DNA from: Streptomyces sp. NBC_00440
GTDB taxonomy: Bacteria; Actinomycetota; Actinomycetes; Streptomycetales; Streptomycetaceae
Assembly: GCF_036014215.1 (NCBI RefSeq)
Contig: NZ_CP107921.1
Span: 5,277,501-5,341,500, forward strand
Direction: 5' to 3'
DNA length: 64,000 nucleotides
Part shown: positions 15,055 through 46,021 of the stretch, piece after piece
Layout of the letters: every line of letters starts with the position of its first letter
Position numbering within the stretch: position 1 is the first letter of the stretch
Notes under the pieces: model-generated
What the model saw: the letters and a program-made list of their open reading frames with translations, nothing else
The model's database searches: none
What the model was told of the DNA's origin: nothing
Position numbers and translations under genes: made by a program

Positions 15055-15144
15055 GGCCACCTCGCCTCTCCTGCTTCTCGTACTGCTCTTACTGCTCATG
15101 TGCATTCGTTCGTGTACGTCAGCCGTGTACGGCAGTGGTGCGTG

Positions 15145-18100
15145 TCAGTCGCCCGCGCCGGACAGCGCGGCGAAGATGTCCGTGGACAGTGTCACGGGCG
15201 GACCGTCGTCCTCGAACACACCCCCCGGGTACCGCACGTTGAGCTGCGTCAGCTGGAATTGGACGAACTGCTCGTAGAGGGCCAGTTCCTCCGCCAGCTT
15301 GGTGGGCAGCGGCCCGGATCGCCGGGCGAGGTCCACTGTCAGGAACAGATCGGCCTGGAACTTCCCCTTCTCGCGCGGGTCGAAGTCCGCAGGCACCTGA
15401 TCGGTGCCGTCGTTGGTCTTCCTGCGCCAGTGCCCCACCAACTCTCGCAGGCGCTGATCCGTGAAGACGTTCAGGCCCAGGTGCTGCGCCTCCGCCGACC
15501 AGTGCACGAAGGAGCGGAACCGCTGCTCCGCGAGGCCGGGTTCGCTGCCCAGCAGCTCGTCGGCCGCGGCAAGGAACCGTGCGCGGTCGCGGCCGATGCG
15601 GGCCTCTTCCTGCCGCTGACGTTCGTTGTCCCGGTACTTCTGCGCCACCGCCTCGGGCGAAAGGGGCTGCTGCCAGAAGGACTTGTCCTCGCCCAGAGAG
15701 ATGATGTCCGCCGTGGGCACCCGGAGGGCGTCCGCCAGCCGTGTCAGGTATCTCGGGTGTACGCCCAGCGCGTAGGCATGGAGCTCGGTCTCGTTCGGGA
15801 CCTGCGGCAGCGGATGGATGCGCGAGTCGTTGAACAGCTTCTGGGCCCCGGCCCGGTCCATGCTGATCACGTCGGACATCAGGCCCTGCTTGGTGTGCAG
15901 ATAGGACGCGAAGTGCCACCACTCGGAGAGCGGCGCGCCGATCTCCGACATCCGCCGGATGAGCGCGCTCGTGGTGTGCGGCCGGGCTTCCAGCCGGGTG
16001 GCCAGTTGGTCGAGTGCGTCGAGGGCGGAGCGGAGAGGGGCGGGTCCCTGGAGGGCGACCTTGATGCTGGCGAGGGCGGTGGGGTGCAGTCCGAGGGCCT
16101 GGGCCGCCGCGGCCGTACGGTCCAGGCCGGTACCGGTGTCGGCAGCGGTGCTCGTGCCGGTTCCTGTGCCGGTGTTCTCGGTCCCGCCCGGATGCGTGTC
16201 CGTGCTCGGGCTCGGGCTCGTGGTCGCGTCCGTGAGCGGGCCGGTCGGCTCCAGGCTCCGGTGCTGCTCCAACAGCCCTCGTACGCCGGGCTCGTCGAGC
16301 AGCCCGGACGGGGTGTTGCGGCGTACCGAAGCCGTCACGTCCGACGTCCAGACCGGGTCCTGCTCGTGGTGCGGCTGCCCCTGCGGGCCCTGCCAGCCGG
16401 CCGGCAGCTCGGACAGCGGCGGCAGCGTGGGGGCGACGGTGTTCAGGAAGTGGTACAGGCTTGACGGGTCGGAGGCGTCGACCGCCATCAGATCCGGCAG
16501 GGTGCTGTTGTCCACGTCGCCCATCAGGACTGTGAAGATGTCGGAGCGACGTGTGAGCTTCATCGTCGGGTCGGCCGCCGGTGCCAGCTCCACGTCGAAG
16601 GTGACCCGGCTCAGGTCGCGGCGTCCGGCGGGGTCGGGGTGCTGGAATCCGGCGGTCAGCTGCGCACGTATCTGCGGCAGCAGCTCATCGGTCACACGGC
16701 TGTGTTCCGCGGGGTCCAGCGGCGGATACGGCAGGACCCGGGTGACGCGTATCCCCAGCGCCCCGTCCTGGTGGATCACGCGCCGGACCGCGAACTGTGC
16801 CGCCGTGCCATTCGGCTTGTTCACCTGGGTATGCACGGGAGCCGTGAGCGCGAGCACTTCGGAAGAGCTGTGCGGGACCGGCGGCTGGTACGCGGAGGGC
16901 CGGACCCACAGCTGTTCGCCGCCCCGGACGTGTCCGTGCATCCGCACGCCGTTGTACACGCCCTCCCACAGGTAACCGCCCTCCGGGACCTGGACCCACG
17001 AACCCGAGCCGATCGCGTTGCGGTGGGCCACGACCATCGCTTCCCAGACCTGGTGCGTCGACCAGGAGGAGGGGAAGAGCAGCTGGCCGATGGTCGCCGT
17101 GCCGTCGGCGCCGAGCACGGCCCCGTTCTCCCGGTCGCCGAGCTGCCATTCGCGCGGGGGCGGGGTGCCCTTGGCGGCGGCCTGTTCGGTCAGCCCCCGC
17201 AGGTTGGGATCCCTGAACCAGACCGTGGCCCACTGGGTGCCGTTCGGGTGGGCGCTCCACAGCGGGTTGATCAGGACGCCCTGGTCGTACTGTGCCTCGA
17301 CCCCCGCCCGGTCCGGCAGTGCGTAGTGGACGCCGGTCCTGTTGTGGGTGGAGCCGTACGTCACGAAGCGCAGCGTGCCCTCCCCGATCGCGGGTTCGCC
17401 GGTGACTCCGGGCGGCGGTGCGAGATGGGCGAAATAAGGGGGAAGTTCGGGAACGGAGGGCGTTCTGAGGTGGACGGGCGTCACGAGCCCGGTCTGGTCG
17501 GAGTGCGGCGCGAAATCGGTGATGGTCCCCTTGCCGTCGACCGTGCCCTTGATCCGTACGCCCTGGTAGTCGCCGGTGAAGTGGTAGTTGCCCGCCTCGA
17601 TACCGTGGGCGCCCGTGGTGGGCACCAGACCGTCGGTGCTCTGCTGGCGGAGGTAGACCTGGCGGGTGGCGTAGAGCGCCTCTTCGAGGGTCCAGTGGTC
17701 GGGGAACATGGTCCGTGCGCTGCCGTCGGGGTGGGTGCCTGCCTGGTAGGTGCCGTTCGGGTTGCGTTCTTCGGTGGCGATGGCGCGGGGCCGGTCGGTG
17801 GTGCCTTGCGGGGCGAGGAGGCCGGGGATGCCGGTGCGGGGGTTGCCGCGCAGGACGCGTTCCCGTACGTCGAGCGGGATGTCGACGGTGGCCCGCGGCG
17901 CCCCGGGCATCGCCGCCCCGATCGCGGTGCCCATGACCAGGAGGTCGCGGGGCATGATCCGCAGATAGGGCGACCGAACCGACGGCCGCTGGAATTGGGA
18001 GTCGACCGCCGGCCGGCCGAAGAGCGGGTCGGCGTAGATGGCGCCCATCAGCGCGTGCTCGTCGTAGACCGGCCAGTGGGCGAGCCCCGGGGTGTGATCC

Positions 18101-18546: not shown

Positions 18547-21500
18547 GCTGGGCTGCGCAGGGGCGGGCGGCGTTACGGGATGCGGCAGGCTCGCGTCCAC
18601 GGGTGTCTGCGGGGGGACGGGGAGCGGAGGCGGTGCCGAATCCGACCGGCCGCGGGTTGTGGGCCGCTGCGGGAGGACGGCGGGCGCGGACCGGTGGGGC
18701 GGGTGCGGGTCCGTGGACGGTGTCACGGGCACGACGGCGTCCTTGGCCACGCCCCCCGGGACGGCGTCCTTGGCGACGCCCCCCTCGTACCAGAGGTCCA
18801 GCAGCTCCGTCTTGGACCGGATGTACCGCTTGTACTTGTTCAGCGTCTCCGTCAGTTCCTTGGACAGGTGTCCCGACTGCTCGGCGAGGTCGACCTCATG
18901 GAGGAGAGCGGCATGCTTCTCCCGTTCCTTGCGCGGGTCGAAGTCCTCGGGGACCGGGTCGGTGCCGTCCTCCGTGTCCTCACGCCAGTGCTCGGCCAGC
19001 TCTTGCAGGCGCTCGTCCGTGAAGATGTGCAGCCCCACGTCCGAGACCGTGGACCAGTGCATGAAGGAGCGGAACCGCTGCTCCGTGACGGTGGGGTCGC
19101 TGCCGAGGAGTCTGTCGGCGACCTTGTCGAACCGTGCGTGGTCGCGGGTGAAGTGGAGATCCGCCACCTTCTGCTGCTTGCTGATCCGGTAGTCCAGCGC
19201 CACGGCCTCGGGTGAGAGGGGCTGCTGCCAGCGGAACTTGTCCTCGCCCAGTTCGACGATGTCCGCCGGGTCCACCTGGAGGGCGTCCGCCAGCCGTTGC
19301 AGATAGGCCGGGTGCACGCCCAGTGCGTAGGCCTGTTCCGCCGTCCCGTGCGGGATGCGCGGCAGCGGGTTGGCGAACGAATCCTTGTACAGCTTCCAGG
19401 CCTGGGGCAGATCCATGTCGAGCATGTCGTTCATCGTCAGCTGCTTGGAGTGCAGGTACGACGAGAAGTCCCACCACCCGGGGAGCGGCGCACCGAGTTC
19501 CGTCATCCGCCGGACGAGCGCGCCCGTGGAGTGCTTCCAGGCCTCCATGCGGGCGGCCAGCTGGTCGAGTTCGGTGAGGGTCGGGCCCAGGAGGGTGGAG
19601 CCCCGCAGGGCGACCTTGATGCTCGCGAGAGCGGAGGAGGGTATGCCGAGCTCCTTCGCCGCCGCGGCCATACGGTCGGCGCCTGCGCCTGCGCCTGTGT
19701 CTGCTTCTGCGCCTGCTTCTGTGTCTGTGCTCGTGCTCGCCTTCGCTGTTGTCTTCCCGTCGGCGCCCGTCCCCGCGCCCGTCCCCGCGCCCGTCCCCGC
19801 GCCCGTCCCCGCGTCCGCGCCCGCGTCCGCGCCCGCGTCCGCGTCGGTGAGCGGGCCGGGCGTGTCCTGGCTGCTTCGGTGCTGCTCCAACAGCCCCTTC
19901 ACGCCGGGCTCTTCGAGTATTCCGGCCGGGGTGTTGCGGTGCAGCGAAGTCGCCACGTCCGACTCCCAGACCGAGCGTCGTGTGTGGTGCGGCAGCCCCT
20001 GCGGTCGCTGCCAGCCGGCCGGTTTCCGCGGTACCGGCGGCAGCAGGTTGACCACGTTGTGCAGGAAGGTGTCCAGGCCCTGCTGGTCGGTGGGGTCGAG
20101 CAGGGTCAGGTCCTTCAGGATGCTCGTGTCCGAGGAGCCGATCAGGATGTTCATCAGCTCGGGGCTGAACGCGACCATCGTCGGATCGTCCGTCAGTGAC
20201 AGCTCCACGTCGAAGGTGACCTGACTCAGTTCCCGGTGTCCTTGCGGGCTGAGCCGGTTGAAGCCGGCGGCCAGCTGCTTCCGGACCTCAGGCAGCAGGT
20301 GCTCGGTCAGCTCGGTCTGCCGTTCCTCAAGCATCGGCGGATGCGGCAGGACCCTGGTGACGCGCATCCCCAGGTTGCCGTCCTGGTGGATCACCCGCTG
20401 GATATGGAACAGCGCCGTCGAGCCATCGGGTTTGGCCGCGCCGACCTGCAGGGGAGCGGTGACCGCGAGTATCTCGGGCGAGCTGTGCGGGACCGGCGGC
20501 TGGTGGGTGGAGGGCCGGACCCACAGCTGTTCGCCGTCGCGGACGTGTCCGTGCATCCGCACGCCGTCGTGCACGCCCTCCCACAGGTATCCGCCCTCCG
20601 GGACCTGCACCAGCGAACCGGTGTCGAGCGCGTTGCGGTGAGCCATGACCATCGCGGTCCAGAGCTTGCGCGGCGACCAGTCGGAGGGGAACAGCAGATG
20701 GGCGGTGATCCCCGTGCCGTCCGCGCCGAGCGCGGTCCCGTTCTCCGCGTCGCCGAGCTTCAAGGGGCGCGGGGGCGCGGCGCCGTTGGCGACCGCGTGT
20801 GCCGTGTGACCGCGCAGATTCGGGTCCTTGAACCAGATCGTGGCCCACTGGGTGCCGTTCGGGTGGGCGCTCCACAGTGGGTCGATCTGGACGCCCTGGC
20901 CACGCTGCGCGGCGGCCCCGTCCGGGCCGGGCAGCGCGTAGTGGACGCCGGTCCTGCTGTGGGTGGAGCCGTACGTCACGAAGCGCAGCGTGCCTTCCCC
21001 GATCGCGGGCTCGTTGCTGGTCGGGGCCGGCATGACGAGATGGTCGGGCGGCACGATGTCGGCCTGGTCGGAGTGCGGCGCGAAGTCCGTAATGGTGCCG
21101 GTCAGGTCGGCTGTGCCCTTGATCCGTACGCCCTGGTAGTAACCGTCGAAGTGGTGGCTTCCCGGCTCGATCCCGGGGGTTTCCGTGGTGGGCACGAGGC
21201 CGCCGGTGCTCTGTTGGCGGAGGTAGACCTGGCGGGTGGCGTAGAGCGCCTCTTCGAGGGTCCAGTGGTCGGGGAACATGGTCCGTGCGCTGCCGTCGGG
21301 GTGGGTGCCTGCCTGGTAGGTGCCGTTCGGGTTGCGTTCTGTGGTGGGGGTGGGGCGGAGCCGGTCGGTGGCGCCTTGTGGGGCGAGGAGGCCGGGGGTG
21401 CCGGTGCGGGGGTTGCCGCGCAGGACGCGTTCCCGTACGTCGAGCGGGATGTCGGCGGTGCCCCACGGCGCGTGCGGCATCGCCGACTTGATCGCGGTGC

Positions 21501-33500: not shown

Positions 33501-36500
33501 TCCGCATGGCGAGCCCGCGGGCGCCCAGCTCCACCACATGGGCGTGCACGGCCTCCTTCATGCCGAGCACCAGCGTGTGCAGGTCCTGGTGGTGCTCGAC
33601 GCCGGACGCGGCCGAGGCAGTGGCGCGCAGCTCGTCCGGGGAGCCGACCAGGTTCCGCAGTTTCTGACCGAGGTGGGGGAGCTTCGGAGCGACTGCCGAG
33701 GGCGCGCTGACCAGCAGCGAAGTGAGCTGCGAATAGCCGTCGTCCGGCACCTTGACCACCGGGCGGGGCGTACCCGGCACGGGTTCGAGGTCGGACCCGT
33801 CGTCGGAGACCGAGTCGTTGTCGGAGACCGAGTCGTTGTCGGACGGCGGGTCCTGTGGCGGCCTCAGGTCCTGGGTCTGGTCCACATAGCGGTAGTGGCC
33901 GTCCTTCAGCAGCAGTTCGACGCCGCGGTTGCCCGGGTTGCCCGTCGCCTCGCTGCCGTTGGGCATGAACGTATGACGTCTGCCGCCCACCATCACCGTC
34001 ACCGGAACCCCGAACAGCTGGGCAGCCAGCGGCGGATACAGGTCACCCGCGCTGTCCTTGGCAGCGGACTCCTCGTTGGCGGGCCGCGTCGTCTGCGACG
34101 CGGCGAGCGAGGTCCGCTGCTCCGGGGTCAGTACCGCACGGTGGTTCTCGGTCGGGCGGCCCGCCGAGTGCGGAATCCACTTGCCCTCGGTGTACTCCCG
34201 GCCCTGCGGGGTGGACCTGTCCAGCAGGGTGTCCAGCCCGGCCGCTCGGATCTCGTCGGGCTCGAACTTGTCGGTGAGGTCCGGGTGGATGTAGTCCGCC
34301 AGGGGGTCGGGACTGTCCCTGTCCTCGCGGAGGTTCTTGCCGAACAGCGTGCGCAGCTCGTTCACCGTATCGGTGAGATCGTGGCCCTTCGGGACGGTGA
34401 TGCCCTGCGTGGTCAGCAGGTCCGGATCGATCCGGACCAGGTGTGCGGCCAGGTGGTGGAAGAAGCCGTTGCCGTCCTTCGTGGTCGGACCGACCTCGTG
34501 GATCTCCCCGGACACCACGTTCTTCAGGCTGGTGACTTCACCGGCTTCGTTCGTGAACTCCTCGTACTCGGCGCCGTGTTCGGGCTTCTCCACACCGTGG
34601 TCGTGCTCCACGGTCGCGTCGTACGCCAGCGACTCGGGCGCCGTGCCGGTGCGCTCGTTCTCCGGGAGCCGGTGCCAGTCGTTGAGGGCGTCGGCGGCCG
34701 ACCGCAGATTGCGGTAGTGCTCGCCCGCGTCCCGCAGCTTCTGGGTCAGCGACTCCAGCTTCGGCCGGACCGTCTCCCGTGCCGCGTTCAGCTCGGCGTT
34801 CGCCGTGTCCAGCGCCTGCTGGGCCGCTTGCCGGGCCTCGGGGGTGGTCGCCACGTCCAGCCGGTGCTGCGCGTCCTGCACCACGAAGGCCAGGTCGGTC
34901 AGCGGGCGGTAGGTGCTCCAGTACGCGTCGTGGTTGGCCTTCCAGGTCTTCCACCCCTTGGCCACGTCGTCCCACTGGCTGGACAGCGCCGCGGGGTGGT
35001 TCTGGTCGGTGATGAGCCCCAGATCCCGGGCCACGTCCTCGCGGATCCAGGCGAGCACATCGGTGTCCGTCTCACCGGCCTGGAGGCCCGGCGGGTCGTA
35101 GCCTTCCCAGGTCAGCCCGCGAGTGGCCACCTGGCCGAACGAGCTGTCCTTGAAGTGGCGGTGCACCCCGGCGACGGCCAGCCACTTCGTGGGTACGGAG
35201 AAGAGGAAGGCCCGCCCGGTGTCCGGCTTCATATTGATCTTGGCGGCGGTCGCCTCGTTGAACTTGTACTCCTCCGACGAGCCGACGCCCGGCGCGATGA
35301 CCGGGGTGATCTGGTAGGTCGTGTTGTGCGAGTCGGCCCCGATGGCGTCACCGCCCAGCCCGCCGTTCTTGCCGTGGACCTGCCCCTCACCCACGTCGAA
35401 GCTCTCACCGGTGCCGGTGGCGAACTCCATCCGCACATCGGCCGTCGCGAGCAGTTTGGCCCCCGACAGGTCGAAGGCCGGGTGGAGTTGGAGTGAGCCC
35501 GTGGAGCCGCTGATGAGGGTGTCGTCGACCAGACCGAGCGGCTGGTAGCCGTTCTCGCCGAGTGCCGAACCGTCGATGAGCGAACCGGTCAGGGACAGCT
35601 CGTTGGTGCCGGCGGTCAGGGTGTCGCCGCCGCCCTTGCCGGGCGACAGCAGCTTGACGTTCGCGGCCTTGGCGCGGGCCTGGGCCAGCTGGTCACCGGT
35701 GAGTACCCCGTGGGTCTCCGGGCCCTTGCCCGCGTGACCGCCGTTGAGGTGCGGGGTCTGGGCCTTCGCCAGGGTGATGTGAGCCAGCGCCTCGACATTC
35801 TCCGAGCCGAGTACCCGTGTGAAGTGCACCCCGTTGCTGGGGACCAGCCCGGCGGGGCGGTTGTCGCCGGACACGTGCTGGGCGAGGTGCCGGCTGATCC
35901 TGTCAGGCGTCGCGTTGGCCGACTGCCACACGTCCACGGAGGCGGGCGGCGGTGTGTACACATCGCCCTCGGTCTCCCCGCCCGGCTTGAGCAGCGCCAG
36001 TGGCTCCTGGCTCCTCGCGCTGCCCGCGGGCCAGGTGTGTTCCAGTACGACATCGCCCTTGTTGTCCAGGACCGTGACCACGACGTCGTACGAGGTGGAG
36101 ACGGTGGCGAGCGGGCCGGGGATGACCGTCACCTGTGCCACGGTGTCCGACTCCGAGCTGCTGTGGCCACCGCTCGTTCCCGTCGAGCCGCTGGAGTTGC
36201 CCAGCGGGCCGCCCGACGAACCGTTCGGCCCGGTGATGCGTTCGGTGATGTTCGCGGAAAGGCCGCGGGAACGGGTGACGCCCCGCGAATCGGTGGTGCT
36301 GGTGGTGACGGACTGACCGCTCTCCACATCGCCGAAGCCGAAGTCCTCGACGCTCCGCGCGCCGGGGACCTGCTTCACCGTCACCCGGTATTCCTTGCCC
36401 CCGAGCGGGAGACTCTCGGTGAAACCGCGCCAGGGCGCACGGCCCCGGTACTGCTGCGGAATACCGGACTCGACCATGGCCTGCCCGTGTCGTTCGGACA

Positions 36501-39500
36501 GCAGTGTCCTGATGGACTCCAGGCTGTTGCGGGTGAACCGCAGATTGCGCAGGCTCCGCATGAACTGCGCACGGTTCGCGTCCGGACCGCTCGGCGCCGA
36601 CACCGGGACGACCCCGAGCGGACTCTCCTTGAACCACGAGGAGTGCGACCAGGCCCCGGCCCCTTCGGCGAGCCTGGGCACCTGCGCGATACCGGTGTTG
36701 AACAGGTTCAGCGCGTGGGCCGCCTGTTCGGAGACCAGTCCGCGCCAGCCATTCGCCTTGTCCACCAGCTGCCCGGTCCATGCGGGCAGCTTCGAGCGGA
36801 ACGGGGTGAGGGCGCCGAGCTTGTCGGCGGACATCTCGACCCGGTACTCGGCGTTCGCAGCGACCGGCACCCACTGACCGTTCTCCGGGACGATGTTGAC
36901 GGACCGGCTGTTGGTCCGGCCGCCGCCCGTCGAGGTCATGCTGGAGCGCGAGTACGGAGTGGCACCGAAGCCGTAACGCGTCGTGGTGGGCACGCTCGTG
37001 TGCTGCGCGGGGAAGTGCCCGGCGTTCAGGTCGAACGACAGCACCCAGCCCTTGCCGTCCCCTCCCGACACCGCCAGGTCCAGGCTGTTGTTCAGCTCCG
37101 GCTTGAGATCGACGGGGCCGCCCACGGCGGTCGGGTTCCCACGCCGTCCGACGAGGCGGATGTCGCCCGTCGCGCCGTACAGGAATCCGGGGGCGCGTAC
37201 GTCGTTGAGCTGCTTGCCCGTCGGGGAGAACACCTGGTCGGAGTCAGCGGTCAGCGACATCGAGCCGAGGGCGTTCTTCATCCGCTGGTGCTGGCTGGTC
37301 CCCTCGGTCGTCAGCGACCACTCACCGCGGGTCGCACGGTTCGCGACCAGCGGCCCCGCCTCCTGGATGTGATGGTCCGTCGGCACGTACTGGGTGATCA
37401 CCGGGATGTTCTTGAGCGTGTCCGCGCGCTGCCACGCCGACGGCGCCCACAGGTCCTCGGTCTCGTCCTGTGTCAGCTCCCTGGTGGTGGTCGCGTGTTC
37501 GACGGCGTACGGGTTGGCCGCGCCCTCCGCATGCGGGTCGACCTTCGGCATGTACTGCTCCGACAGATGGAGCATCACGCTGAAGTCCCCGAGCGTGGCC
37601 CCGGGGCCGCCCACGGTGACCGGCTCGTGGATCTTGCGCCCCGCTCGGCCGAGTGTGAGGGCCCGGTACGTCGCGTGCCACTGGTGCACACCCACCAGCT
37701 CGGCCGTGAACCGGCCGGTCGCCGAGAAGGAATGCACCCCGGCCGGGGAGGCCGTCACGTCCTCGCGGCCGGCGGTGAACACGGTGCCGTTGCTCCGGGT
37801 GTGCTGGCGGCTCGCCCCCGCCCTGGCCCCCAGCACGCCGATATGGTCCGGCGTGCCCTTACGGAACGTCTCGTTCGAGCGCAGTTCGACAGTGCCGCCC
37901 GCCTGGGCCCCGAAGGTGTGCGTGGTGCTGTGGGCGTTGCCCACGCGCTCACCGGCGTTGTTGTTCTGGCGGGTCATCCGGTCACGGTCGGTGCCCTGGT
38001 AGACCGGCCGGTCGAGCTCGGCCTTCAGGTTCAGCGAGAAGAGGTTTTCCTTGGTGAGGTTGCGGCCGAACAACTTGACGGACAGCCCGTCGTGGGCGAG
38101 TTCGTTGAGCGTCGTCGCCAGGTTCCGTTCGTCGAACTTGGCCATGATGATGCGGGTGTTGGCCTGCGCCCGGCTCCGTTCGCCGCTGATGGCCTGCAGG
38201 AACTTCGTCAGTTGGCCGCGTGGATCGGCGCTGTTCCCGTCCGGACGCGGGGCGACCAGCACCGAGTCGCCGTGCGTCCGGTTGATCCAGTCGAGTACCC
38301 GGTCGACGAGTACGTTCGGGGACGTCGGGTCCGTGGCGTGAGTGTTGTCGATGACGAGGTCGGTGGCCCTGGTGTGCGTCAGGTCGTAGTCGCCGTTGCG
38401 CCAGTGCGCGGGCAGCGGCGGCTCGCTCCCCTCGGGACGGGTATGCGTGTCGGGGTCCCAGCCCGCCCGCTCGCGCGCCTCGCGCACCGGCAGCCGTACG
38501 AGACTCCAGGTGTCGAGGGTGTGCGTCTCGCCCTCGAAGGTGACGGGGACCTGGAGCTCCTGGAGGTAGAGGGCCGTGTCGCTGCCCTTCACCCGCCCGG
38601 TGATCTTGCGGCCCACGTTGCCGCCCTGGAGCGAGACCTCGCTGGAGTCGTGGCTGTAGTGCAGGGTCAGCCCGAGCTGCATGAAGATGTGCGGCGCCTG
38701 ATCGGTCGGGATGGCGAACCGCGAACCGCCGAAGAAGGCCACCACGTAACGCCGGTTGTCCTGGACCAGGACCTCGTTCTTCACGGTGATGGCATCCGTG
38801 ATGCGCATCTCGGCGTCGCCCACGACCTCGATCAGATGGTGCTCGCCGGATATCGCCTTGCCCACCTGGAAGGTGCCTGCGGACTGGCCGTTGCGCCTGC
38901 GCACGTCGAGTGGTGCCAGCGGTCCGCGGGCGATCTCGTCGGACCTGCTGTGGAAGTGGTCCGAGCTGAAGTAGTCGCTGAGCTGCTTGTGCTTGTACCC
39001 GCCGGGCCTGGCGTCGAGCTTCTGGACCGCCCAGTCGAAGACCGACTTCACCGGCCCGAAGCCCTCGGTGCTCGGCGAGCCGGGGCGCGCGCCGGGCGGC
39101 GGGGTGAAGTTGTGCGGTACGCGCAGCTCCGACTCCTTGGGCACGGCGGAGTCCTTGGAGACCCGGGTCGTCATCCCGTTCTTGACGCCCGTTCCGAAGG
39201 CGTCGATCCGCTCGTCCGGGTGGAACTCGACCTTGTAGTAGACGTCCTGGTGGAAGGACTCGCTGCCGCCCGTCGTGCGCGTCTCACGCTGGAACGAACG
39301 CTGGTCGTGGCTGCCGATCACATGCTTCTGGTTGTGACTGGCGCTCCCGCGGAGGTCGAACAGCATCCGGGCGTCGGAGGGCAGCGCCCCGGCGGCGAGT
39401 CCCAGCTGGAGACCGGTGCCCCGGGACGTGCCGGTGTTCGTACCGGTCTGCTGCTGGAGCTGCTGGGAGGTGTCCAGCTTGTGCGGGTCGCGGGCGTCGG

Positions 39501-42267
39501 AATCCGGGTGGTGGGTCCACCTGTCGGCGTACGGGACGGCCGTGACGGTCATCACGGTCCGCTTCGCCTTGGTGAGACTCGTCCCGAGGAAGGGGACGCT
39601 GTGCTTGACGACGAACCGGCGGCCGTCGCCGAGGAACGAGCCCGGGTGCCGGGCCAGTTCGTCGTCGATCTCCTTGATCACGGATTCATCGGCCCGGTCG
39701 CCGGTGCGCTTGAGATTGAGCGCGGCGTTGAGTTTGTCGTGGAGCGTGCGACCGATGCTCCTGCCGCCCGGCTGAAGCAGCTTGGTGCTGCTGTGGCCTG
39801 CGGTGGAGCCGGTGGGGAGCGGACGCTCAGCGGGGCGGGGATGCGTGGCGTTCGGCTTGACGTACTGACTCACGTCATGCTGCCAGAGCGGAGGACGGGG
39901 GGAGCCCGCGGTGGTCTCTCCGGGCCTGTTCGCGGGGGTGGGGGGCGTCAGGGTGTCGTCGTGCTCGGGGCCGCCGGCCGGGCTTTCTTCGTTGTTCTGC
40001 TGATTGACCTGCTGATTGACCTGCTGATTGACCTGCTGATTGACCTGCTGATTGACCTGTTGGGTGTTCTGTTCGGTGATCTGGTTGTTGGCCTGGTCGT
40101 TGTTCTGCTGATCGGTGTGCTGGTTGTTCTGGAGCTGATCCGTGTCGAGTGCCGAGTTGTTCTGGTGCTCGGTGGAGACGGTGTTGGTGTGGGACAGCGG
40201 CCTCGGAGGGGGCGTCTCCGAGACCGTCTCGTCAACCGTCTCGTTGACATGGACCGTCTCGGTCACCGTCTCCGTGACGTTGTTCGCCGTCGACTCCGGG
40301 GCCGTGACCAATTCGTTGTTCGGCGTGAGCGACGAGTCGAAGTCGGTGGAAGTGGTCTGGGTCGAAGTCGGGCGCGGCAGGGGCTTCAGCTCGATACTGC
40401 TGCTTCCTTCGCCGTTGTTCGGCAGAAGGGGGGACTGGTTCGGACGGCGGGGCGGGGGCGCCGCATTGGGGAGGTGGGGCGATGACGAGGGTGTGGACGA
40501 CAGGTTCGGCGAGGTGGTCGATGCCGTGTTGGCGTGGGGCACGGAAGGGGCCGGTGCTGCCTGCGAGACGGGAGCGATCGGCGTCACCGGGGCCTCGGAC
40601 TCGTTCCGGGAGTCCGAAGTGTTCGTGTGCTGAACGTCGTTCGAGTGGTTGACCGTGTGGACCGTCGTGTTCGAGGAGCTCGTCGGCACAGGTGTCACCG
40701 GCGTCACCGAGTCATGGGACGTGTCGTCGGTGGTGTTGCTGTACAGCGAGTCGGTGTCGCTGTGGCTGTACAGCGACTCCGTGTCGCTCACATCGAGATG
40801 GTCGAGGTGATCGTCCAGCTGCCCGTCCAGGTTCTTGTCCAGGCCCTTGGGCGGGTCCAGGTCGAAGTTCTTGTCCAGGCCCTTGTCGAACCCGCCGTCG
40901 AGTCCCGATGTGTCGAAGTGGTGGGACATGGCATGCACGACGGGGTGGACGAGATAGACGTGCCCGCCGTGACTCAGTCCGCCGGTCAGCATGCCCGCGA
41001 CGAAGGTGTCCCACGACGTGGAGAAGCCGTCCTGGTAGATCAGGTTGTAGAAACCCTCACCGAGGTTCTGGCCTATGGACTCGACGAGCAGCCCACTGCC
41101 GACCATGCCCAGCCGGAAGCGCTTGTTGCCCTGGAAACCCATGTGCATCAGGGTCTGGGGCATGTCGTGGGCGAGCACCTTCAGCGCGTTCTTGTCGAGC
41201 GTGCTGCCCAGTTCCCTGGTGAGTTCCTTGCTGAGTGCTTCCGCCGCCCCCTTGGCCGGGCCCGACCAGTGCTCCGTGACGGTCTTGGCCCAGGTCTTGC
41301 CGATCTGACGGGACTCCTCCTTCGTCAGCCCGTTGATGGGGGATTTGGCGAACTCCTTGCCCATGTTCTTGATGAAGTTCTCGGTCGTGGCCTTGGCGCC
41401 CTCCTTCCCACCGAGCTTGGTGAAGCCCTTGGTGAGGCTGAGGTCGTGGTCGCTCAGCAGCTTGGCCACGTTCTTGGCCAGGTCACTGGCTCCGCCCTTG
41501 CCCCCGACCTTCTCCAGGGTCTTGAAGAGCGTCGTCAGCTCCGTGGTGAGGAGCTTCGACAGACCCTTGCCGAGCTTGTTGCCCAGCCACTTGCCGATCC
41601 CCGGGGCGAGCAGGCTGAGCGGCCCGGTGACCAGGCCCTGGATCGCGCCGAACTTGACCGCGTCCAGCAGTAGTTTGTTGTCGAACTTGTCCCGGTTGCC
41701 CTGGCCGATCTGGACCAGCTGGATGATGCGGTCCATCGCGATGCCCATGCCGACCCCGAGGGCGACGTGCTGGGCGATCCTCTTGAGCAGCTCCTTGATC
41801 AGCATCTTGAGGAACACCCGGGTGAAGAGCGTGCGCCAGCTCAGCCCCTCCAGCAGTGCTTCACCGAAGCCGGGCACCCACGAGAACGCCATGGCGTACA
41901 TGAACTCGGCCAGCAGCTCGATGAGCTGGGCGAGCATCATCCATTTCGTGTACTCGGCCTGGTTCGCGGTGTCCCGGGCGGTCTTCGCCATTTGCTGGGA
42001 CTGCTCCGCCGCCGCATCGAGGAACGAGTTGTCGCCGCCCGCGATGACCTGTCCCAGATTGAGGAACGCGGTGGCCGCGTCGCCCTCGAAGTTCTGCCGG
42101 ATGCTCTGGAGCAGCTGTACGAGCTGGTCGTCGAGCTGCTTGTAGTCGTTGCCCACGGAGTCGTAGAGATCCGCTGCGTTGCGGAGCTCGTCCTCGTTGG
42201 CCTGTGGCCACTTCATGCCCGTGAGGGCATGCATGATCCACTCGATCGCGGGGGAGGGCGTCAGCAT
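15145..42267 (-). CDS. Giant T7SS-linked multi-metzincin protein (9040 aa)
   Basis: One uninterrupted frame of 9040 codons, about 1 MDa. Residues 1-140 resemble the WXG100-like leader of CpnT-type type VII substrates (MLTPSPAIEWI, GMKWPQANEDELR, FEGDAATAFLNLG); hydrophobic and amphipathic helices follow to about 450. Residues 450-810 form a Ser/Thr/Asn/Gln/Pro linker with five VNQQ repeats. Residues 810-2390 look beta-strand-rich and match no family I know. Residues 2580-3020 hold two OTU-like regions without catalytic Cys. From about 3070 to the end are five tandem modules, each with a metzincin domain, two EndoU-like units and a helical HWS region. It starts 13 bases after a 108-aa Esx-like gene in the T7SS operon. 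Export through EccC is the likely fate. Related large Streptomyces proteins carry a lonely-Cys-domain annotation in databases; membership here is unchecked. Confidence 0.93.
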   Translation of the reverse strand: MLTPSPAIEWIMHALTGMKWPQANEDELRNAADLYDSVGNDYKQLDDQLVQLLQSIRQNFEGDAATAFLNLGQVIAGGDNSFLDAAAEQSQQMAKTARDTANQAEYTKWMMLAQLIELLAEFMYAMAFSWVPGFGEALLEGLSWRTLFTRVFLKMLIKELLKRIAQHVALGVGMGIAMDRIIQLVQIGQGNRDKFDNKLLLDAVKFGAIQGLVTGPLSLLAPGIGKWLGNKLGKGLSKLLTTELTTLFKTLEKVGGKGGASDLAKNVAKLLSDHDLSLTKGFTKLGGKEGAKATTENFIKNMGKEFAKSPINGLTKEESRQIGKTWAKTVTEHWSGPAKGAAEALSKELTRELGSTLDKNALKVLAHDMPQTLMHMGFQGNKRFRLGMVGSGLLVESIGQNLGEGFYNLIYQDGFSTSWDTFVAGMLTGGLSHGGHVYLVHPVVHAMSHHFDTSGLDGGFDKGLDKNFDLDPPKGLDKNLDGQLDDHLDHLDVSDTESLYSHSDTDSLYSNTTDDTSHDSVTPVTPVPTSSSNTTVHTVNHSNDVQHTNTSDSRNESEAPVTPIAPVSQAAPAPSVPHANTASTTSPNLSSTPSSSPHLPNAAPPPRRPNQSPLLPNNGEGSSSIELKPLPRPTSTQTTSTDFDSSLTPNNELVTAPESTANNVTETVTETVHVNETVDETVSETPPPRPLSHTNTVSTEHQNNSALDTDQLQNNQHTDQQNNDQANNQITEQNTQQVNQQVNQQVNQQVNQQVNQQNNEESPAGGPEHDDTLTPPTPANRPGETTAGSPRPPLWQHDVSQYVKPNATHPRPAERPLPTGSTAGHSSTKLLQPGGRSIGRTLHDKLNAALNLKRTGDRADESVIKEIDDELARHPGSFLGDGRRFVVKHSVPFLGTSLTKAKRTVMTVTAVPYADRWTHHPDSDARDPHKLDTSQQLQQQTGTNTGTSRGTGLQLGLAAGALPSDARMLFDLRGSASHNQKHVIGSHDQRSFQRETRTTGGSESFHQDVYYKVEFHPDERIDAFGTGVKNGMTTRVSKDSAVPKESELRVPHNFTPPPGARPGSPSTEGFGPVKSVFDWAVQKLDARPGGYKHKQLSDYFSSDHFHSRSDEIARGPLAPLDVRRRNGQSAGTFQVGKAISGEHHLIEVVGDAEMRITDAITVKNEVLVQDNRRYVVAFFGGSRFAIPTDQAPHIFMQLGLTLHYSHDSSEVSLQGGNVGRKITGRVKGSDTALYLQELQVPVTFEGETHTLDTWSLVRLPVREARERAGWDPDTHTRPEGSEPPLPAHWRNGDYDLTHTRATDLVIDNTHATDPTSPNVLVDRVLDWINRTHGDSVLVAPRPDGNSADPRGQLTKFLQAISGERSRAQANTRIIMAKFDERNLATTLNELAHDGLSVKLFGRNLTKENLFSLNLKAELDRPVYQGTDRDRMTRQNNNAGERVGNAHSTTHTFGAQAGGTVELRSNETFRKGTPDHIGVLGARAGASRQHTRSNGTVFTAGREDVTASPAGVHSFSATGRFTAELVGVHQWHATYRALTLGRAGRKIHEPVTVGGPGATLGDFSVMLHLSEQYMPKVDPHAEGAANPYAVEHATTTRELTQDETEDLWAPSAWQRADTLKNIPVITQYVPTDHHIQEAGPLVANRATRGEWSLTTEGTSQHQRMKNALGSMSLTADSDQVFSPTGKQLNDVRAPGFLYGATGDIRLVGRRGNPTAVGGPVDLKPELNNSLDLAVSGGDGKGWVLSFDLNAGHFPAQHTSVPTTTRYGFGATPYSRSSMTSTGGGRTNSRSVNIVPENGQWVPVAANAEYRVEMSADKLGALTPFRSKLPAWTGQLVDKANGWRGLVSEQAAHALNLFNTGIAQVPRLAEGAGAWSHSSWFKESPLGVVPVSAPSGPDANRAQFMRSLRNLRFTRNSLESIRTLLSERHGQAMVESGIPQQYRGRAPWRGFTESLPLGGKEYRVTVKQVPGARSVEDFGFGDVESGQSVTTSTTDSRGVTRSRGLSANITERITGPNGSSGGPLGNSSGSTGTSGGHSSSESDTVAQVTVIPGPLATVSTSYDVVVTVLDNKGDVVLEHTWPAGSARSQEPLALLKPGGETEGDVYTPPPASVDVWQSANATPDRISRHLAQHVSGDNRPAGLVPSNGVHFTRVLGSENVEALAHITLAKAQTPHLNGGHAGKGPETHGVLTGDQLAQARAKAANVKLLSPGKGGGDTLTAGTNELSLTGSLIDGSALGENGYQPLGLVDDTLISGSTGSLQLHPAFDLSGAKLLATADVRMEFATGTGESFDVGEGQVHGKNGGLGGDAIGADSHNTTYQITPVIAPGVGSSEEYKFNEATAAKINMKPDTGRAFLFSVPTKWLAVAGVHRHFKDSSFGQVATRGLTWEGYDPPGLQAGETDTDVLAWIREDVARDLGLITDQNHPAALSSQWDDVAKGWKTWKANHDAYWSTYRPLTDLAFVVQDAQHRLDVATTPEARQAAQQALDTANAELNAARETVRPKLESLTQKLRDAGEHYRNLRSAADALNDWHRLPENERTGTAPESLAYDATVEHDHGVEKPEHGAEYEEFTNEAGEVTSLKNVVSGEIHEVGPTTKDGNGFFHHLAAHLVRIDPDLLTTQGITVPKGHDLTDTVNELRTLFGKNLREDRDSPDPLADYIHPDLTDKFEPDEIRAAGLDTLLDRSTPQGREYTEGKWIPHSAGRPTENHRAVLTPEQRTSLAASQTTRPANEESAAKDSAGDLYPPLAAQLFGVPVTVMVGGRRHTFMPNGSEATGNPGNRGVELLLKDGHYRYVDQTQDLRPPQDPPSDNDSVSDNDSVSDDGSDLEPVPGTPRPVVKVPDDGYSQLTSLLVSAPSAVAPKLPHLGQKLRNLVGSPDELRATASAASGVEHHQDLHTLVLGMKEAVHAHVVELGARGLAMRMPHLVPQFTQGNRRAMYRAVNLMFKEVKTAVAAWEHSGDSPWSQSFLPLLADTFGVDLTVHTAPSGGNPGGSDRFRPPPGGGAPLSVHLQQNGSHFDGTTEPTARPRTESFRVPGASPNAPLHTRHTGPLEAPAPVPLHKPAATPTLTADYSVVEIPPHRSATAPHPVADVSSLGTAEILPPSDRTMDEGGAAASVWERGFAVERTLLSDGSVRSDVTVRIHLDVQPGANANHVANAKAMAKRGIDTYYNDPKHRLPNGDLLQVKLEFVFDPADAHRKVKLHPDPGGTGRDNSATWYVSEGGAGSIDKSYVIAHETGHLLGFQDQYREAKQGRPFRPVYDDHSLMSGYGIDASGRVQFDMDHMTSDHTLSPSLRIMPRDLLLLSTAVDAAWSHTPGAGAAPHDKARAHIPLDVRERVLRGNAGTGANGLLAPRGPSGRFRPEATGPLNPNGTYRAGKRPDGTVQTMFPDHWSRDEVLHATRQVYLDHVRTGSLRTDTERSGRQTFDGVYQGVRIKGTADAIGTIIDFAPHPDQSGLQPPTHLEPPPPRKLTDEPAFSDASMRFMLRGDVPTLTGVQYAHSEDRRELAQTDRGIIFEKLTDPDFNGVRRAEVWFRNPPTGPGPKTLKVGDGDSPDGVGQDGWGTNPRMLFPEEWAPGDLREAVRDAHNNALANGLFEVLPDGGYLWEGSAGGVRMQGVVKDGEHRWFRPTRFQPHPEWDAHDIAATTSETPMTFTRASGGLAEFRASHVVFTNGDRGLNLTRVVRYSKGMDPGALTELREKLSDVQDHIDDTYNSGEESKENGRLPKTRFTVELRPTSRNNPSEDGADIGTLSLHSAEDAAARLLGFDVDPDAGRQDLVRQVLEHRRPTPRSTHSWNPPNQQQGGTPSPLLTADVEAALRRNTHAGLFDEPGVLELLAARRSQDHAPHVTKESTEAALAALTEGEFAPGYTRTPDDQLPGGWTPDRLRLAALRAARSSAPRTPDPHQPGALTIVTTPEPGVQLTTRVSSTSLVVLGAEIVRVPQPAAPAGHPQAPAPQPGNHAPVDLNSNVTPVNPVYLAAISGALGLHPTYLRSVLPVLHQSATPSEALHTLQTLATRLDAGPQLGEFVRRMSELGVSADDWWDLSTFQHSQGESMRSLLGPDLQQSRQRIDEWQRTEVVDTDAVTDATAHELGVHPLALTRLADALRLYSPSDITRLNMDADFWQRPATPEELALEYLAGHRTEIEELRAEIDRERFDEIADDLLGEDRNETGDPDLDYHGFLHWSRMSLEGLRHFTTAELDFLIGNWSAVRDIVPPPPGFDLADHRSELYEVEHQRNMAEFAVIRANRAQDPVALSSAQERLAQLDPYVTDHRAEREQRLAQLWSENPMTPATPGAQTPSSHPATPTHTVFDEDIVMGDADQMDWDGDIVMTPSPHRPHSSPHLTTLHETTAPVHAPAPGVDYSVAEIPPRPSASVPRPESSLGTAEIERPSMRTMAKGGVAASVWERGFAVERTKLSDGSVRSDITVRIHLDLQTGANEKHVANAKDMAKRGIDTYYNAPKHRLPNGDLLHVELEFVDNAAQAHRKVALHPDPDGTGRDNSATWYVSEGGAGSADKSHVIAHETGHLLGFQDQYREARTGRPLRPVHDDHSLMSGYGTDDAGLIQFSMDHGIHSTHPLSPTLRIVPRDLLLLSTAVDTAWSHAPGVGAGPLDKARAHIPLEVRDRVLRGNATTGATGLLAPRGPSGRVRPEPTTPRNPNGTYQAGKRPDGSDQTMFPDHWSPEEVLHATRQVYLDHVRTGSLTTDRERSNRHTFDGVYQGVRIKGTAGTTGTIIDFAPHPDQSGLLPPTHLQPPPPRKPTDEPAFGDVATRFLTYGSTADRTGVHYTLPGPNGVLAQRHHGVFIEPLWPAHPNGTQWATVWFKDPNLREQTVRALANGTPPPPALHRGDRENDAMVGVDGEVATPHLLFPSDWSTPQLLDSIVEAHRNARGNGSWVEVPEGGYLWEGVHDGVRIHGHVRDGEHLWARPSTDQPPSPDHSPKVFAVTAPVDFEMPRPGNTPAPFRVQRVIHLDGSLGMRITRVLSHPALSPEQSNELAGPLREVQLQVGAELNRPDPLAHRELSLITFAVELSPTDDPAMTEYSPELSNIATDFFNPNMVQDLMVLDLNDQEAVNTFLREAADRLPPVSELPAGWQGPQGQPHHEQDPAWTSDVTTSVRRNTLAGLLDEPGVKALLAQHRGQEPPSPLTNTDTNTTDTGADTHTVGADAGAGTHTDRMAAVADALGLQPSDLTSIESALKGSALIRPALDALNQLAARLDAGPTGPFVKRMTELDVPLSEWWDFSSYLHTKRASMSDMVALDRTWVQPVLDDSRAHPVPNVSAETSDQAHALGVHPRYLTRLADALKVGTEDVALLGKRKPFWQQPLSPETLGQKVRAELDSEREKREDARLARDHRRFDDAADELLGSRSTRTEEEFRSFMHWSTVAHLGLDVLPDQRLRELVGHWRLETNDGTDPVPADFDPRKAGKPQAELLHMVALAHRSGPLPQKLEKALARRDADIKAQLTLLDLWHEGDVHQDDGPPVTLPTAPNPAQSSSTQQHASQNVPLRTPHASPHRAPAPTPTPAAVHAVTDVPTAPVAPTPIAEIPPHSSASVPRPPVTDVRSLGTAEVLPPSDRVMDLGGAAASVWERGFSVERTELSDGSVRSDITVRIHLDRRPGATENHVANAKDMAKRGIDTYYNAPKHRLPNGDLLRVKVEFVDTPAQAHHTVELHPDPDGDGRDNSGTWYVSEIGKGAEDKSYVIAHETGHLLGFQDQYREAKAGIPLRPVHDDHSLMSGPDIDESGLIQFDMNLPPFDRLSPNLRVVPRDLLMLSTAVDAAWAHTPGVGTGPHDKARAHIPLDVRDRVLRGNPSTGAAGLLAPRGPAGRFRPEATGPRNPNGTYRAGKRPDGSDQTMFPDHWSPEEALHATRQVYLDHVRTNSLTTDSERSGRQTFDGVYQGVRIKGTADAIGTIIDFAPHPDQNGLQPPTHLEPPPPRKPTDEPAIGDVALRFLTYGSTADRTGVHHSLPEEAGTFAQRHHGVHIEPLWPAHPNGTQWATVLFKDPNLRGRTAQAVAKGSPPPLEWQLGDRENGTVFNPDGLTAAGQLLFPHHWSLPTLRDAIAGAHRTARNAGSWVEVPEGGYLWEGVHDGVRMHGYVRDGEHLWARPSTDQPLISAMSAKVLAVTDPVRISLNTPDGTPLPFHVQRVIHEDGTLGLHITRVLERPPLADEFHEYLRDEMLPDLREQLAADFNRLSPYRHRELSLVTFDIELSPTEDPAMELGDDSELVKIAQNDGDLSSLLSDLMTVDSIDEAGMDALLQSVRGMLPPVSELPADWQGPQGQPQHEQNPVLKSVWESDVTTSVHRNTPAGILDEPGVRALLAPYRSQEPSSPLTNTGTDTVVSPHRLAAAAGVLTLRPSDLTSITAALQGTTPLRTALDSLNQLAARLGLGRSTRQLVKQMTDIGVPLSEWSHFSSYLHTKGHTLSRVASMDPARAKKLYADSRAHPMPRVPDDTRFFAYTLGMHPTYLQRLADALHVHPSDVLNLGEYETFRQQPHAPEALARNYWLDNHQTLEDVRFARSHTRFNTVADELLGSDPDLAYARFRSFMHWSGVASEGLHIFTDQRLRELVGHWRVETNDGTTHVPEDYDPFVEREQHADLLHLADKSAPLLDPAREEALDKYERHIQTRLTQLDEQYPGGVSQGDGPPVTPSTAPPATQQPAAPRPHLQSPPTVLPQSPANPPQSSAAPHAPAAPQTPAPTASSTPGSVEIPRPTAAFRNSAGYTGPIWMRQFSARRIELPNGVSRSEITVRIHLDAKDGVTPEDIEATKDVTARSLTKYFNAPRHRLPNGDLLVVKAEFTDDPAQAHHTVVLHPDPNGNGPDDAGNWYVSAQSIESKPHMPAHEIGHLMGLWDYYRRHTPGLAHWPVYDDHALMGGNYADPLFGRISVDNHFPRPMTLSPHLRVMPRDLLVLGTAIKSAMPHAPWGTADIPLDVRERVLRGNPRTGTPGLLAPQGATDRLRPTPTTERNPNGTYQAGTHPDGSARTMFPDHWTLEEALYATRQVYLRQQSTGGLVPTTETPGIEPGSHHFDGYYQGVRIKGTADLTGTITDFAPHSDQADIVPPDHLVMPAPTSNEPAIGEGTLRFVTYGSTHSRTGVHYALPGPDGAAAQRGQGVQIDPLWSAHPNGTQWATIWFKDPNLRGHTAHAVANGAAPPRPLKLGDAENGTALGADGTGITAHLLFPSDWSPRKLWTAMVMAHRNALDTGSLVQVPEGGYLWEGVHDGVRMHGHVRDGEQLWVRPSTHQPPVPHSSPEILAVTAPLQVGAAKPDGSTALFHIQRVIHQDGNLGMRVTRVLPHPPMLEERQTELTEHLLPEVRKQLAAGFNRLSPQGHRELSQVTFDVELSLTDDPTMVAFSPELMNILIGSSDTSILKDLTLLDPTDQQGLDTFLHNVVNLLPPVPRKPAGWQRPQGLPHHTRRSVWESDVATSLHRNTPAGILEEPGVKGLLEQHRSSQDTPGPLTDADAGADAGADAGTGAGTGAGTGAGTGADGKTTAKASTSTDTEAGAEADTGAGAGADRMAAAAKELGIPSSALASIKVALRGSTLLGPTLTELDQLAARMEAWKHSTGALVRRMTELGAPLPGWWDFSSYLHSKQLTMNDMLDMDLPQAWKLYKDSFANPLPRIPHGTAEQAYALGVHPAYLQRLADALQVDPADIVELGEDKFRWQQPLSPEAVALDYRISKQQKVADLHFTRDHARFDKVADRLLGSDPTVTEQRFRSFMHWSTVSDVGLHIFTDERLQELAEHWREDTEDGTDPVPEDFDPRKEREKHAALLHEVDLAEQSGHLSKELTETLNKYKRYIRSKTELLDLWYEGGVAKDAVPGGVAKDAVVPVTPSTDPHPPHRSAPAVLPQRPTTRGRSDSAPPPLPVPPQTPVDASLPHPVTPPAPAQPSAEIPRPSAPFMNSSGHTGPAWERKFSARRTVLPDGATQAEITVRIYLDPQAGVTPEVVQAAKDTAVGGLKKYYNDPDHRLPNGDLLRVRAEFTDDPKQAHHTIALHPNPDGNGRSNSANWYLSMETIEAQSQMPAHEIGHLLGLWDYYRDHTPGLAHWPVYDEHALMGAIYADPLFGRPAVDSQFQRPSVRSPYLRIMPRDLLVMGTAIGAAMPGAPRATVDIPLDVRERVLRGNPRTGIPGLLAPQGTTDRPRAIATEERNPNGTYQAGTHPDGSARTMFPDHWTLEEALYATRQVYLRQQSTDGLVPTTGAHGIEAGNYHFTGDYQGVRIKGTVDGKGTITDFAPHSDQTGLVTPVHLRTPSVPELPPYFAHLAPPPGVTGEPAIGEGTLRFVTYGSTHNRTGVHYALPDRAGVEAQYDQGVLINPLWSAHPNGTQWATVWFRDPNLRGLTEQAAAKGTPPPREWQLGDRENGAVLGADGTATIGQLLFPSSWSTHQVWEAMVVAHRNAIGSGSWVQVPEGGYLWEGVYNGVRMHGHVRGGEQLWVRPSAYQPPVPHSSSEVLALTAPVHTQVNKPNGTAAQFAVRRVIHQDGALGIRVTRVLPYPPLDPAEHSRVTDELLPQIRAQLTAGFQHPDPAGRRDLSRVTFDVELAPAADPTMKLTRRSDIFTVLMGDVDNSTLPDLMAVDASDPSSLYHFLNTVAPTLPPLSELPAGWQGPQGQPHHEQDPVWTSDVTASVRRNTPSGLLDEPGVRGLLEQHRSLEPTGPLTDATTSPSPSTDTHPGGTENTGTGTGTSTAADTGTGLDRTAAAAQALGLHPTALASIKVALQGPAPLRSALDALDQLATRLEARPHTTSALIRRMSEIGAPLSEWWHFASYLHTKQGLMSDVISMDRAGAQKLFNDSRIHPLPQVPNETELHAYALGVHPRYLTRLADALRVPTADIISLGEDKSFWQQPLSPEAVAQKYRDNERQRQEEARIGRDRARFLAAADELLGSEPGLAEQRFRSFVHWSAEAQHLGLNVFTDQRLRELVGHWRRKTNDGTDQVPADFDPREKGKFQADLFLTVDLARRSGPLPTKLAEELALYEQFVQFQLTQLNVRYPGGVFEDDGPPVTLSTDIFAALSGAGD
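17645..17770 (-). repeat. 126-bp block identical to 21215-21340
   Basis: By eye, every base of 17645-17770 (module 5) matches 21215-21340 (module 4), a distance of 3,570 bp. The block codes the EndoU-like A-unit stretch around PDGSARTMFPDHW. Synonymous positions are conserved too, which protein-level selection alone would not produce. Confidence 0.9.
18547..22123 (-). repeat. Giant protein module 4 (second metzincin subclass)
   Basis: Residues about 6715-7907. Zinc site HEIGHLMGLWD starts at His6853 (21673-21711), with Met-turn LMGGNY. Modules 4 and 5 form a subclass with LWDYY instead of FQDQY after the zinc ligands and EIPRP instead of EIPPH at the head. Unit A: RERVLRGNPRTGTPG ... TMFPDHWTLEE. 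Unit B: VTYGSTHSRTGVHYALPG ... LLFPSDWSPRK. The linker after unit B contains a long run of Gly-Ala-Asp/Thr repeats (19680-19860). Confidence 0.82.
21215..21340 (-). repeat. 126-bp block identical to 17645-17770
   Basis: Module 4 partner of the identical block in module 5. Sequence diverges at once on both sides (t/c before, g/t after), giving sharp edges as expected of a conversion tract. Confidence 0.9.
22124..25621 (-). repeat. Giant protein module 3
   Basis: Residues about 5549-6714. Zinc site HETGHLLGFQD starts at His5711 (25099-25137), with Met-turn LMSGPD. Unit A: RDRVLRGNPSTG ... TMFPDHWSPEE ... GVRIKGTAD. Unit B: LTYGSTADRTGVHHSLPE ... LLFPHHWSLPT ... GVRMHGYVRDG. The tail has TLGMHPTYLQRLADAL and SFMHWSGV. 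Parts of its DNA match non-adjacent module 1 better than adjacent module 2. Confidence 0.82.
25622..29175 (-). repeat. Giant protein module 2
   Basis: Residues about 4364-5548. Zinc site HETGHLLGFQD starts at His4527 (28651-28689), with Met-turn LMSGYG. Unit A: RDRVLRGNATTG ... TMFPDHWSPEE ... GVRIKGTAG. Unit B: LTYGSTADRTGVHYTLPG ... LLFPSDWSTPQ ... GVRIHGHVRDG. The tail has ALGVHPRYLTRLADAL and SFMHWSTV. It follows an AEIPPRPSASVPRP linker that recurs at the head of the other modules. Confidence 0.82.
29176..33050 (-). repeat. Giant protein module 1 (metzincin + EndoU-like pair)
   Basis: Residues about 3070-4364. The zinc site HETGHLLGFQD starts at His3236 (DNA 32524-32562) and the Met-turn LMSGYG follows some 30 residues later. 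EndoU-like unit A reads VRERVLRGN ... TMFPDHWSRDE ... GVRIKGTAD ... IDFAPH. Unit B is the most divergent (GVQYAHS, MLFPEEWAPGD, GVRMQGVVKDG), with Gln where the other modules have His. The helical tail has ELGVHPLALTRLADAL and FLHWS. This is the longest module, with an insert before the tail. It ends in a linker carrying two DIVM motifs. Confidence 0.8.
33205..34530 (-). other. Two OTU-like regions in the giant protein, nucleophile missing
   Basis: Region 1 (residues about 2580-2800) starts KDGNGFFHHLAAHL and ends LKDGHYRYVD. This mirrors OTU cysteine peptidases, which open with DGNC-x-F and close with a strand ending in HY; the Cys position is Gly here. Region 2 (about 2836-3020) opens PDDGYSQLTSLL and ends HLQQNGSHFDG, again with no Cys. 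Both also have the middle LFGVPVTVMVGG / TFGVDLTVHTAP strand. OTU-like assignment is by motif order only. Confidence 0.45.
39997..40056 (-). repeat. Five perfect 12-bp tandem repeats encoding VNQQ
   Basis: CTGCTGATTGAC is repeated five times without a mismatch on the plus strand, coding Val-Asn-Gln-Gln on the minus strand at residues 738-757 of the giant protein. The flanks are Asn/Gln-rich with decayed versions. The unit keeps the reading frame, so copy-number change would lengthen or shorten the linker without breaking the gene. Confidence 0.95.
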
Positions 42268-45948: not shown

Positions 45949-46021
45949 GTCCGGTCGTCCTTTCGGGAGATGTGGGAGAGGGAGGGGAAGGGGCCGTGCT
46001 GGTGGGCGAGTTGGCCGTGGA

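Follow-up and report, generated by a model that had tools for sequence, protein, structure and literature searches.

The window analysed here is a stretch of 64,000 nucleotides of Streptomyces sp. NBC_00440 (contig NZ_CP107921.1, positions 5,277,501 to 5,341,500; 70% GC), taken from a host genome of 8.68 Mb in two contigs. It contains a giant gene for a protein of 9,040 amino acids (aa) within a type VII secretion system (T7SS) locus. With slightly better than even confidence, we read its product as a T7SS-exported, polymorphic-toxin-type giant of a Streptomyces family, whose working enzymes would be zinc proteases. The gene and its parts are as follows, with the ratio of nonsynonymous to synonymous substitution rates (dN/dS) where calculated.

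15145..42267, minus strand: giant gene, 9,040 aa, 0 Cys; intact in two other assemblies
41824..42246, minus strand: WXG100_2-like leader, residues 8-148 (Pfam PF25547, E 1.4e-12)
40858..41823, minus strand: helical, partly hydrophobic region, residues 149-470 (from the sequence)
39868..40830, minus strand: Ser/Thr/Asn/Gln/Pro-rich linker, residues 480-800 (by composition; dN/dS 0.75)
34618..39810, minus strand: conserved core, residues about 820-2550, ~1,700 residues (dN/dS 0.30-0.55)
33832..34602, minus strand: OTU-like region 1, residues 2556-2812 (DGNGFF replaces DGNC)
33178..33780, minus strand: OTU-like region 2, residues 2830-3030 (DGYSQL replaces DGYC)
29125..32997, minus strand: module 1, residues 3091-4381 (HETGHLLGFQD at 3236; EndoU-like 1 and 2)
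25573..29124, minus strand: module 2, residues 4382-5565 (HETGHLLGFQD at 4527)
22147..25572, minus strand: module 3, residues 5566-6707 (HETGHLLGFQD at 5711)
18577..22146, minus strand: module 4, residues 6708-7897 (HEIGHLMGLWD at 6853)
15148..18576, minus strand: module 5, residues 7898-9040 (HEIGHLLGLWD at 8043)

An earlier sequence-only reading of this DNA had proposed a single gene of 9,040 codons, and our results agree. The frame begins with ATG, has no internal stop, and shows GC contents of 0.69/0.49/0.90 at the three codon positions, the pattern of real high-GC genes. Long open frames (up to 1,591 aa) run antisense to it, as is usual at such GC, and only six antisense frames inside it, of 64-270 aa, pass a crude filter on GC at the third codon position (GC3). 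Streptomyces sp. NBC_01306 has the giant frame intact at 9,011 aa (8,910 identical columns of 9,046). An intact orthologue of 9,014 aa in another genome of the genus, G023, is 63% identical overall; within residues 1-4250, 16 of the 17 windows of 250 residues reach 73-95%, and the linker window 68%. Both orthologues have five zinc sites and no Cys. Between our genome and G023, dN/dS was below 1 in all 13 regions tested, which lie within residues 1-4300 and have a dS of only 0.15-0.39. It might be argued that the frame is an artefact of assembly or prediction, produced by collapsed repeats or missed stops. The modules repeat every 3.4-3.9 kb, which is difficult for short reads, and the fragmented assembly of Streptomyces sp. 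A 4/2 does break inside them, leaving a 4,668-aa part that runs up to the contig end. However, the frame is intact in three assemblies with five zinc sites each, and its codon-position bias continues throughout. We therefore reject an assembly artefact, which is hardly credible given the intact orthologues; the stop or collapsed assembly that the sequence-only reading had named as grounds for refutation is contradicted by NBC_01306 and G023. Nonribosomal peptide synthetase or polyketide synthase domains, considered as a cause of the size, are absent from the Pfam and NCBIfam matches, as had been claimed.

The C-terminal part consists of five modules of ~1,180 aa, each with an intact metzincin motif and two EndoU-like domains. 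The HExxHxxGxxD motif and the Met of the Met-turn are present in all ten modules of our protein and G023, and are invariant in 13/13 aligned rows (five from our protein, four from G023 and four from four other genomes). A predicted model of module 2 comprises a zincin and two EndoU-like domains, and a structure search with the module model gave metzincin fold matches at model residues 36-224 and an EndoU match at 388-553. The second half of the protein scored 27.5 with Pfam M7 (cut-off 25) and 24.6 with M10 (cut-off 24); the first half fell below both. Searches of PDB sequences with the EndoU-like alignments and with part of module 1 gave nothing useful.

Repeat alignment resolves ten EndoU-like domains, two per module. 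The Pfam EndoU model flags seven of these in a genome search, six above the cut-off, and EndoU_bacteria (PF14436) scores 94 and 173.5 bits on two overlapping halves of the protein (cut-off 25.3 bits). Activity of bacterial EndoU has been attributed to two histidines (PMC9990079), and two full EndoU proteins of the genus retain both (HVLKGEL, GYHFRP). In the ten modules of our protein and G023, EndoU-like 1 has both catalytic His replaced throughout, whereas EndoU-like 2 has always lost the first and keeps the second in 8/10. The pair thus occurs in 0/10 copies of our protein and in 0/20 when G023 is counted. An active EndoU toxin is rejected on the absence of the His pair, and the domains should not be taken as active nucleases, a likely misreading that these counts correct. 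The count of five protease-EndoU-like modules and their assignment stand as first proposed; that each holds two EndoU-like domains without the catalytic pair, that only the metalloprotease sites appear intact, and that Cys is absent had been overlooked.

The modules have been reshuffled between relatives. Their types run AAABB in our protein and ABBAB in G023; by identity our module 1 pairs with module 1 of G023 and our module 3 with its module 4, and the rest is mosaic. EndoU-like 1 of our modules 4 and 5 are 81% identical to each other versus 72-79% to the G023 copies of the same type. This is the pattern expected of a polymorphic array. Of the 13 regions, EndoU-like 1 of module 1 showed the smallest dN/dS (0.20), for which gene conversion between modules may be a cause.

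Upstream of the modules lie the two OTU-like regions. No Pfam OTU match backs the OTU reading proposed earlier, and the catalytic Cys is replaced by Gly in region 1 and by Ser in region 2. An active OTU peptidase is rejected, there being no catalytic Cys. Region 2 weakly matches (E 4.7e-4) the end of an OTU-like domain in genome G068 that does have the Cys. In the 13 other giants whose alignment to region 1 reaches the Cys position, it reads DGASFF or DGNGFF, or GTSF in G019, and never Cys, although two of these alignments are weak (G134, E 0.09; G192, E 0.7). Because these homologues behind the core also lack it, the loss of Cys in region 1 is probably old. The dN/dS of this region (0.82, versus 0.75 for the linker) suggests weak constraint.

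The giant gene lies near the end of a minus-strand run that includes EccD, EccB and several small proteins. The neighbouring features are:

13501..15105, minus strand: 534-aa protein; by eye, one membrane-spanning stretch followed by an outer domain with Cys
42281..42607, minus strand: small 108-aa protein; resembles Esx proteins only in size and position, no Pfam match
42600..43061, minus strand: YbaB-like protein, 153 aa (Pfam PF02575, E 2.7e-12)
43061..45109, minus strand: 682-aa protein, no Cys; conserved in NBC_01306 and G023, no family assigned
45664..46098, minus strand: WXG100 protein (PF06013, 27.2 bits, just below the cut-off of 27.3)
46489..47994, minus strand: EccB (family match)
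48047..49435, minus strand: EccD (family match)
49630..53679, plus strand, divergent: EccC, EccCa + EccCb (TIGR03924, E 3.1e-272; TIGR03925, E 2e-250)
58603..59817, minus strand: mycosin-like protease (TIGR03921, 233 bits, below the cut-off of 278.75)

This setting supports the T7SS context claimed earlier, with EccD, EccB, the near-threshold WXG100 protein and the YbaB-like protein on the same strand as the giant, and the proposed WXG100 leader is supported by its Pfam match. Helical amphipathicity over residues 1-470 is far above that of shuffled sequences (z 8.1). From the leader and the gene neighbourhood, we infer that the giant is exported by the T7SS. A search for EccE found no match anywhere, and its controls were likewise silent. 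The 108-aa protein has homologues in NBC_01306, G023, G019 and G054. In the last of these genomes, a leader-bearing frame of 3,262 aa (G054:C1:8289500-8329499) lies in a T7SS locus with EccB, EccC, EccD and YbaB homologues.

The gene for the 534-aa protein starts only 39 bp downstream of the giant gene, and this protein also adjoins the giant in NBC_01306 (99% identity), G023 (53%) and G019 (37%, with the C-terminal part aligned). It had no family match in Pfam and NCBIfam scans. It evolves fast, with its 53% identity in G023 set against 76-94% for the other T7SS-locus neighbours compared. The protein is a possible anchor, receptor or immunity partner of the giant; the same scans of the giant's neighbours recognised no immunity gene. 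Elsewhere the window contains Tad/type II-like pilus genes (4399-9781; ParA-TadE, T2SSE ATPase and T2SSF) and an erythromycin esterase-like gene (60212-61555; PF05139).

The conserved core gave no significant Pfam or NCBIfam match, and we traced its family through genome searches. With residues 1025-2095 of the core (~1,100 aa) as query, 67 of 295 genomes of the genus gave matches, most of which lie in giant frames. The long matches lie in open frames of ~1,500 to 14,900 codons, some of them ended by contig ends, and some genomes of the genus have short weak matches only. Of 394 genomes drawn from the class, ours included, 10 had a match; no long match fell outside the genus, and three genomes of another family had short weak ones. 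A search with the leader in 101 genomes of the genus, again including our own, gave matches in 42, with G023 the best besides our own; the open frames that hold such matches reach 18,430 codons. C-terminal to the core that they share, the giants differ from one another. A giant T7SS-linked protein family is widespread in Streptomyces, with a core for which no matching Pfam or NCBIfam model was found. The idea that the core forms an amphipathic beta pore was dropped after a weak test (z 2.4, not above the modules). Several further frames came to light: a second giant of 18,347 aa in G023, which has 17 Cys and matches the leader weakly (G023:C1:2165000-2224999); a 19,630-codon open frame with zincin-profile matches (G135:C17, around 13442-29248); and a 15,162-aa giant with five zincin motifs, whose only Cys are four that each belong to an OTU-like GDG[NYR]C motif (G068:C1:8713000-8761000).

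The absence of Cys from 9,040 residues may point to a wider rule. Ninety-two control frames of our own genome, chosen by GC3 from ten 20-kb stretches rather than as a secreted-protein set, contain 273 Cys in 35,930 aa (0.760%), a rate at which ~69 Cys would be expected in the giant; two signal-bearing frames were too few to use. Nineteen giants together contain 94 Cys in 197,408 aa (0.048%), where three of the nineteen are orthologues of one another and the frames from G005 and G264 may lack the N-terminus; G072 and G057 were left out, since no frame of more than 3,000 codons met the GC3 limit, probably because their stretches were cut. At the family rate ~4 Cys would be expected, so that zero is only mildly unusual. 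The contexts of 62 of the 94 Cys recur in another giant, partly through common descent, and 32 do not, among which are all 17 Cys from the 18,347-aa giant. Recurring contexts such as VLFSCET and GGGNCLFR resemble, by eye, caspase-like and OTU-like active sites, and a catalytic role is putative, read from such motifs; the 15,162-aa protein has its four Cys exclusively within motifs of the OTU-like kind.

These patterns might reflect a cysteine-exclusion rule for giant T7SS cargo, in which Cys is eliminated over stretches of thousands of residues and allowed hardly anywhere but at catalytic sites. We put this forward tentatively and think it rather less probable than not. Weighing against it, 11 of the 92 control frames are also Cys-free, although none is longer than 918 aa; among the 34 controls of at least 400 aa there are two (918 and 841 aa), neither of which looks like T7SS cargo. 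Exclusion of Cys from exported proteins is described as largely true of Firmicutes, whereas roughly 60% of exported proteins of Actinobacteria are said to have even numbers of Cys (PMC9974433, on Corynebacterium), and Cys-free exported proteins such as RTX lipases and S-layer proteins are known elsewhere (PMC3034196). If the rule holds, the export route would accept neither free thiols nor disulfides, even though the actinobacterial host does produce exported proteins with disulfide bonds. Our giant would then be the limiting case: its OTU-like Cys was lost, no need for Cys remained, and zinc proteases attached to dead toxin folds would account for all of its activity. The family offers a testable rule on Cys in very long exported proteins.

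How might such a protein work? The giant has what is expected of a polymorphic-toxin giant: a WXG-type leader, EccB, EccC and EccD alongside, and several effector-type domains that vary between relatives. The leader and the small partner proteins would bring it to the EccC/EccB/EccD machine, and the core with the OTU-like region behind it may serve as a carrier common to the family. The working end would be the variable array at the C-terminus, five repeats of a zinc endopeptidase and two EndoU-fold domains; the latter have lost their ribonuclease (RNase) activity, and a binding or structural role is the probable reason for their retention. Once exported, the proteases would attack extracellular targets or targets in competitors; in addition, they may cleave the Pro-rich linkers that join the modules and so set these free.

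A different role is conceivable. The giant could be a surface protein that acts on its own producer: the T7SS would export it, the 534-aa neighbour with its membrane anchor would hold it at the surface of the mycelium, and its proteases would mature or remodel the surface proteins of the cell itself. The outer domain of that neighbour, its adjacency to the giant in three other genomes, and the lack of a recognised immunity gene would all fit. Yet the patchy occurrence of the core and the reshuffled modules look more like conflict than like housekeeping proteins, and we consider a self-directed role unlikely. Less likely still, the zinc proteases only release the EndoU-fold domains, which would be the payload and act through residues other than the usual histidines. 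Release peptidases are described in polymorphic toxins (Zhang et al., 2012; PMC3482391), and colicin E5 is an RNase of related fold without catalytic His (PMC9990079). The low dN/dS of EndoU-like 1 in module 1 would fit, and in a distant relative, L073, EndoU-like 1 carries a His close to the second position (GGHLPP). However, a low dN/dS can also result from gene conversion between modules, and the replacements speak against this explanation: both His in EndoU-like 1 of every module, and in EndoU-like 2 the first in 10/10 and the second in 2/10. We retain the interpretation of an exported polymorphic-toxin-type giant armed with zinc proteases. The sequences show the intact frame, its locus and family, the intact metzincin motifs, the lost EndoU His pairs, the lack of Cys and the reshuffled modules, while export, protease activity, antagonism and module release are inferred from them.

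Compared to known enzymes, the protease domains share HExxHxxGxxD, the Met-turn and a fold match with snapalysin and other metzincins (Peptidase M7/M10/M12; PDB 1c7k, 4hx3). They differ from snapalysin in scoring far below the cut-off of its NCBIfam model (NF033628; 36.3 versus 300 bits) and in being embedded five times in one chain. Unlike bacterial EndoU toxins (PF14436; CdiA-CT of E. coli STEC_O31, PDB 5hkq), the EndoU-like copies never keep both His. Among the papers listed by the literature searches (titles and starts of abstracts, few subscription journals), none names this protein or a Cys rule for T7SS giants. 'Lonely Cys domain-containing protein' may be a name in use for such giants; a literature search on it found no papers.

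The sequence-only reading had called the protein a new type of T7SS cargo. This does not hold, because Zhang et al. (2012; PMC3482391) already describe giant actinobacterial proteins of Streptomyces with several toxin domains, the longest of 13,652 aa, and the related genome G023 encodes one of 18,347 aa. They also report OTU domains in WXG-led proteins. Our OTU-like regions are alike in this position and share, by eye, the DG motif and a later His, but differ from OTU domains in having Gly or Ser for Cys and no Pfam match. The closest comparison is SACTE_5178 of Streptomyces sp. SirexAA-E (the 13,652-aa protein), likewise a Streptomyces giant with several peptidase or toxin-type domains per chain, described with lethal-factor-like metallopeptidases, caspase, ART and MCF1-SHE domains (PMC3482391). 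Our giant, with its five modules of a metzincin and double EndoU-like domains and its lack of Cys, is set apart from it by description only. What is added here, as judged from sequence, is the combination of intact metzincin sites beside dead EndoU-like and OTU-like domains, a core without a Pfam or NCBIfam model, and the absence of Cys.
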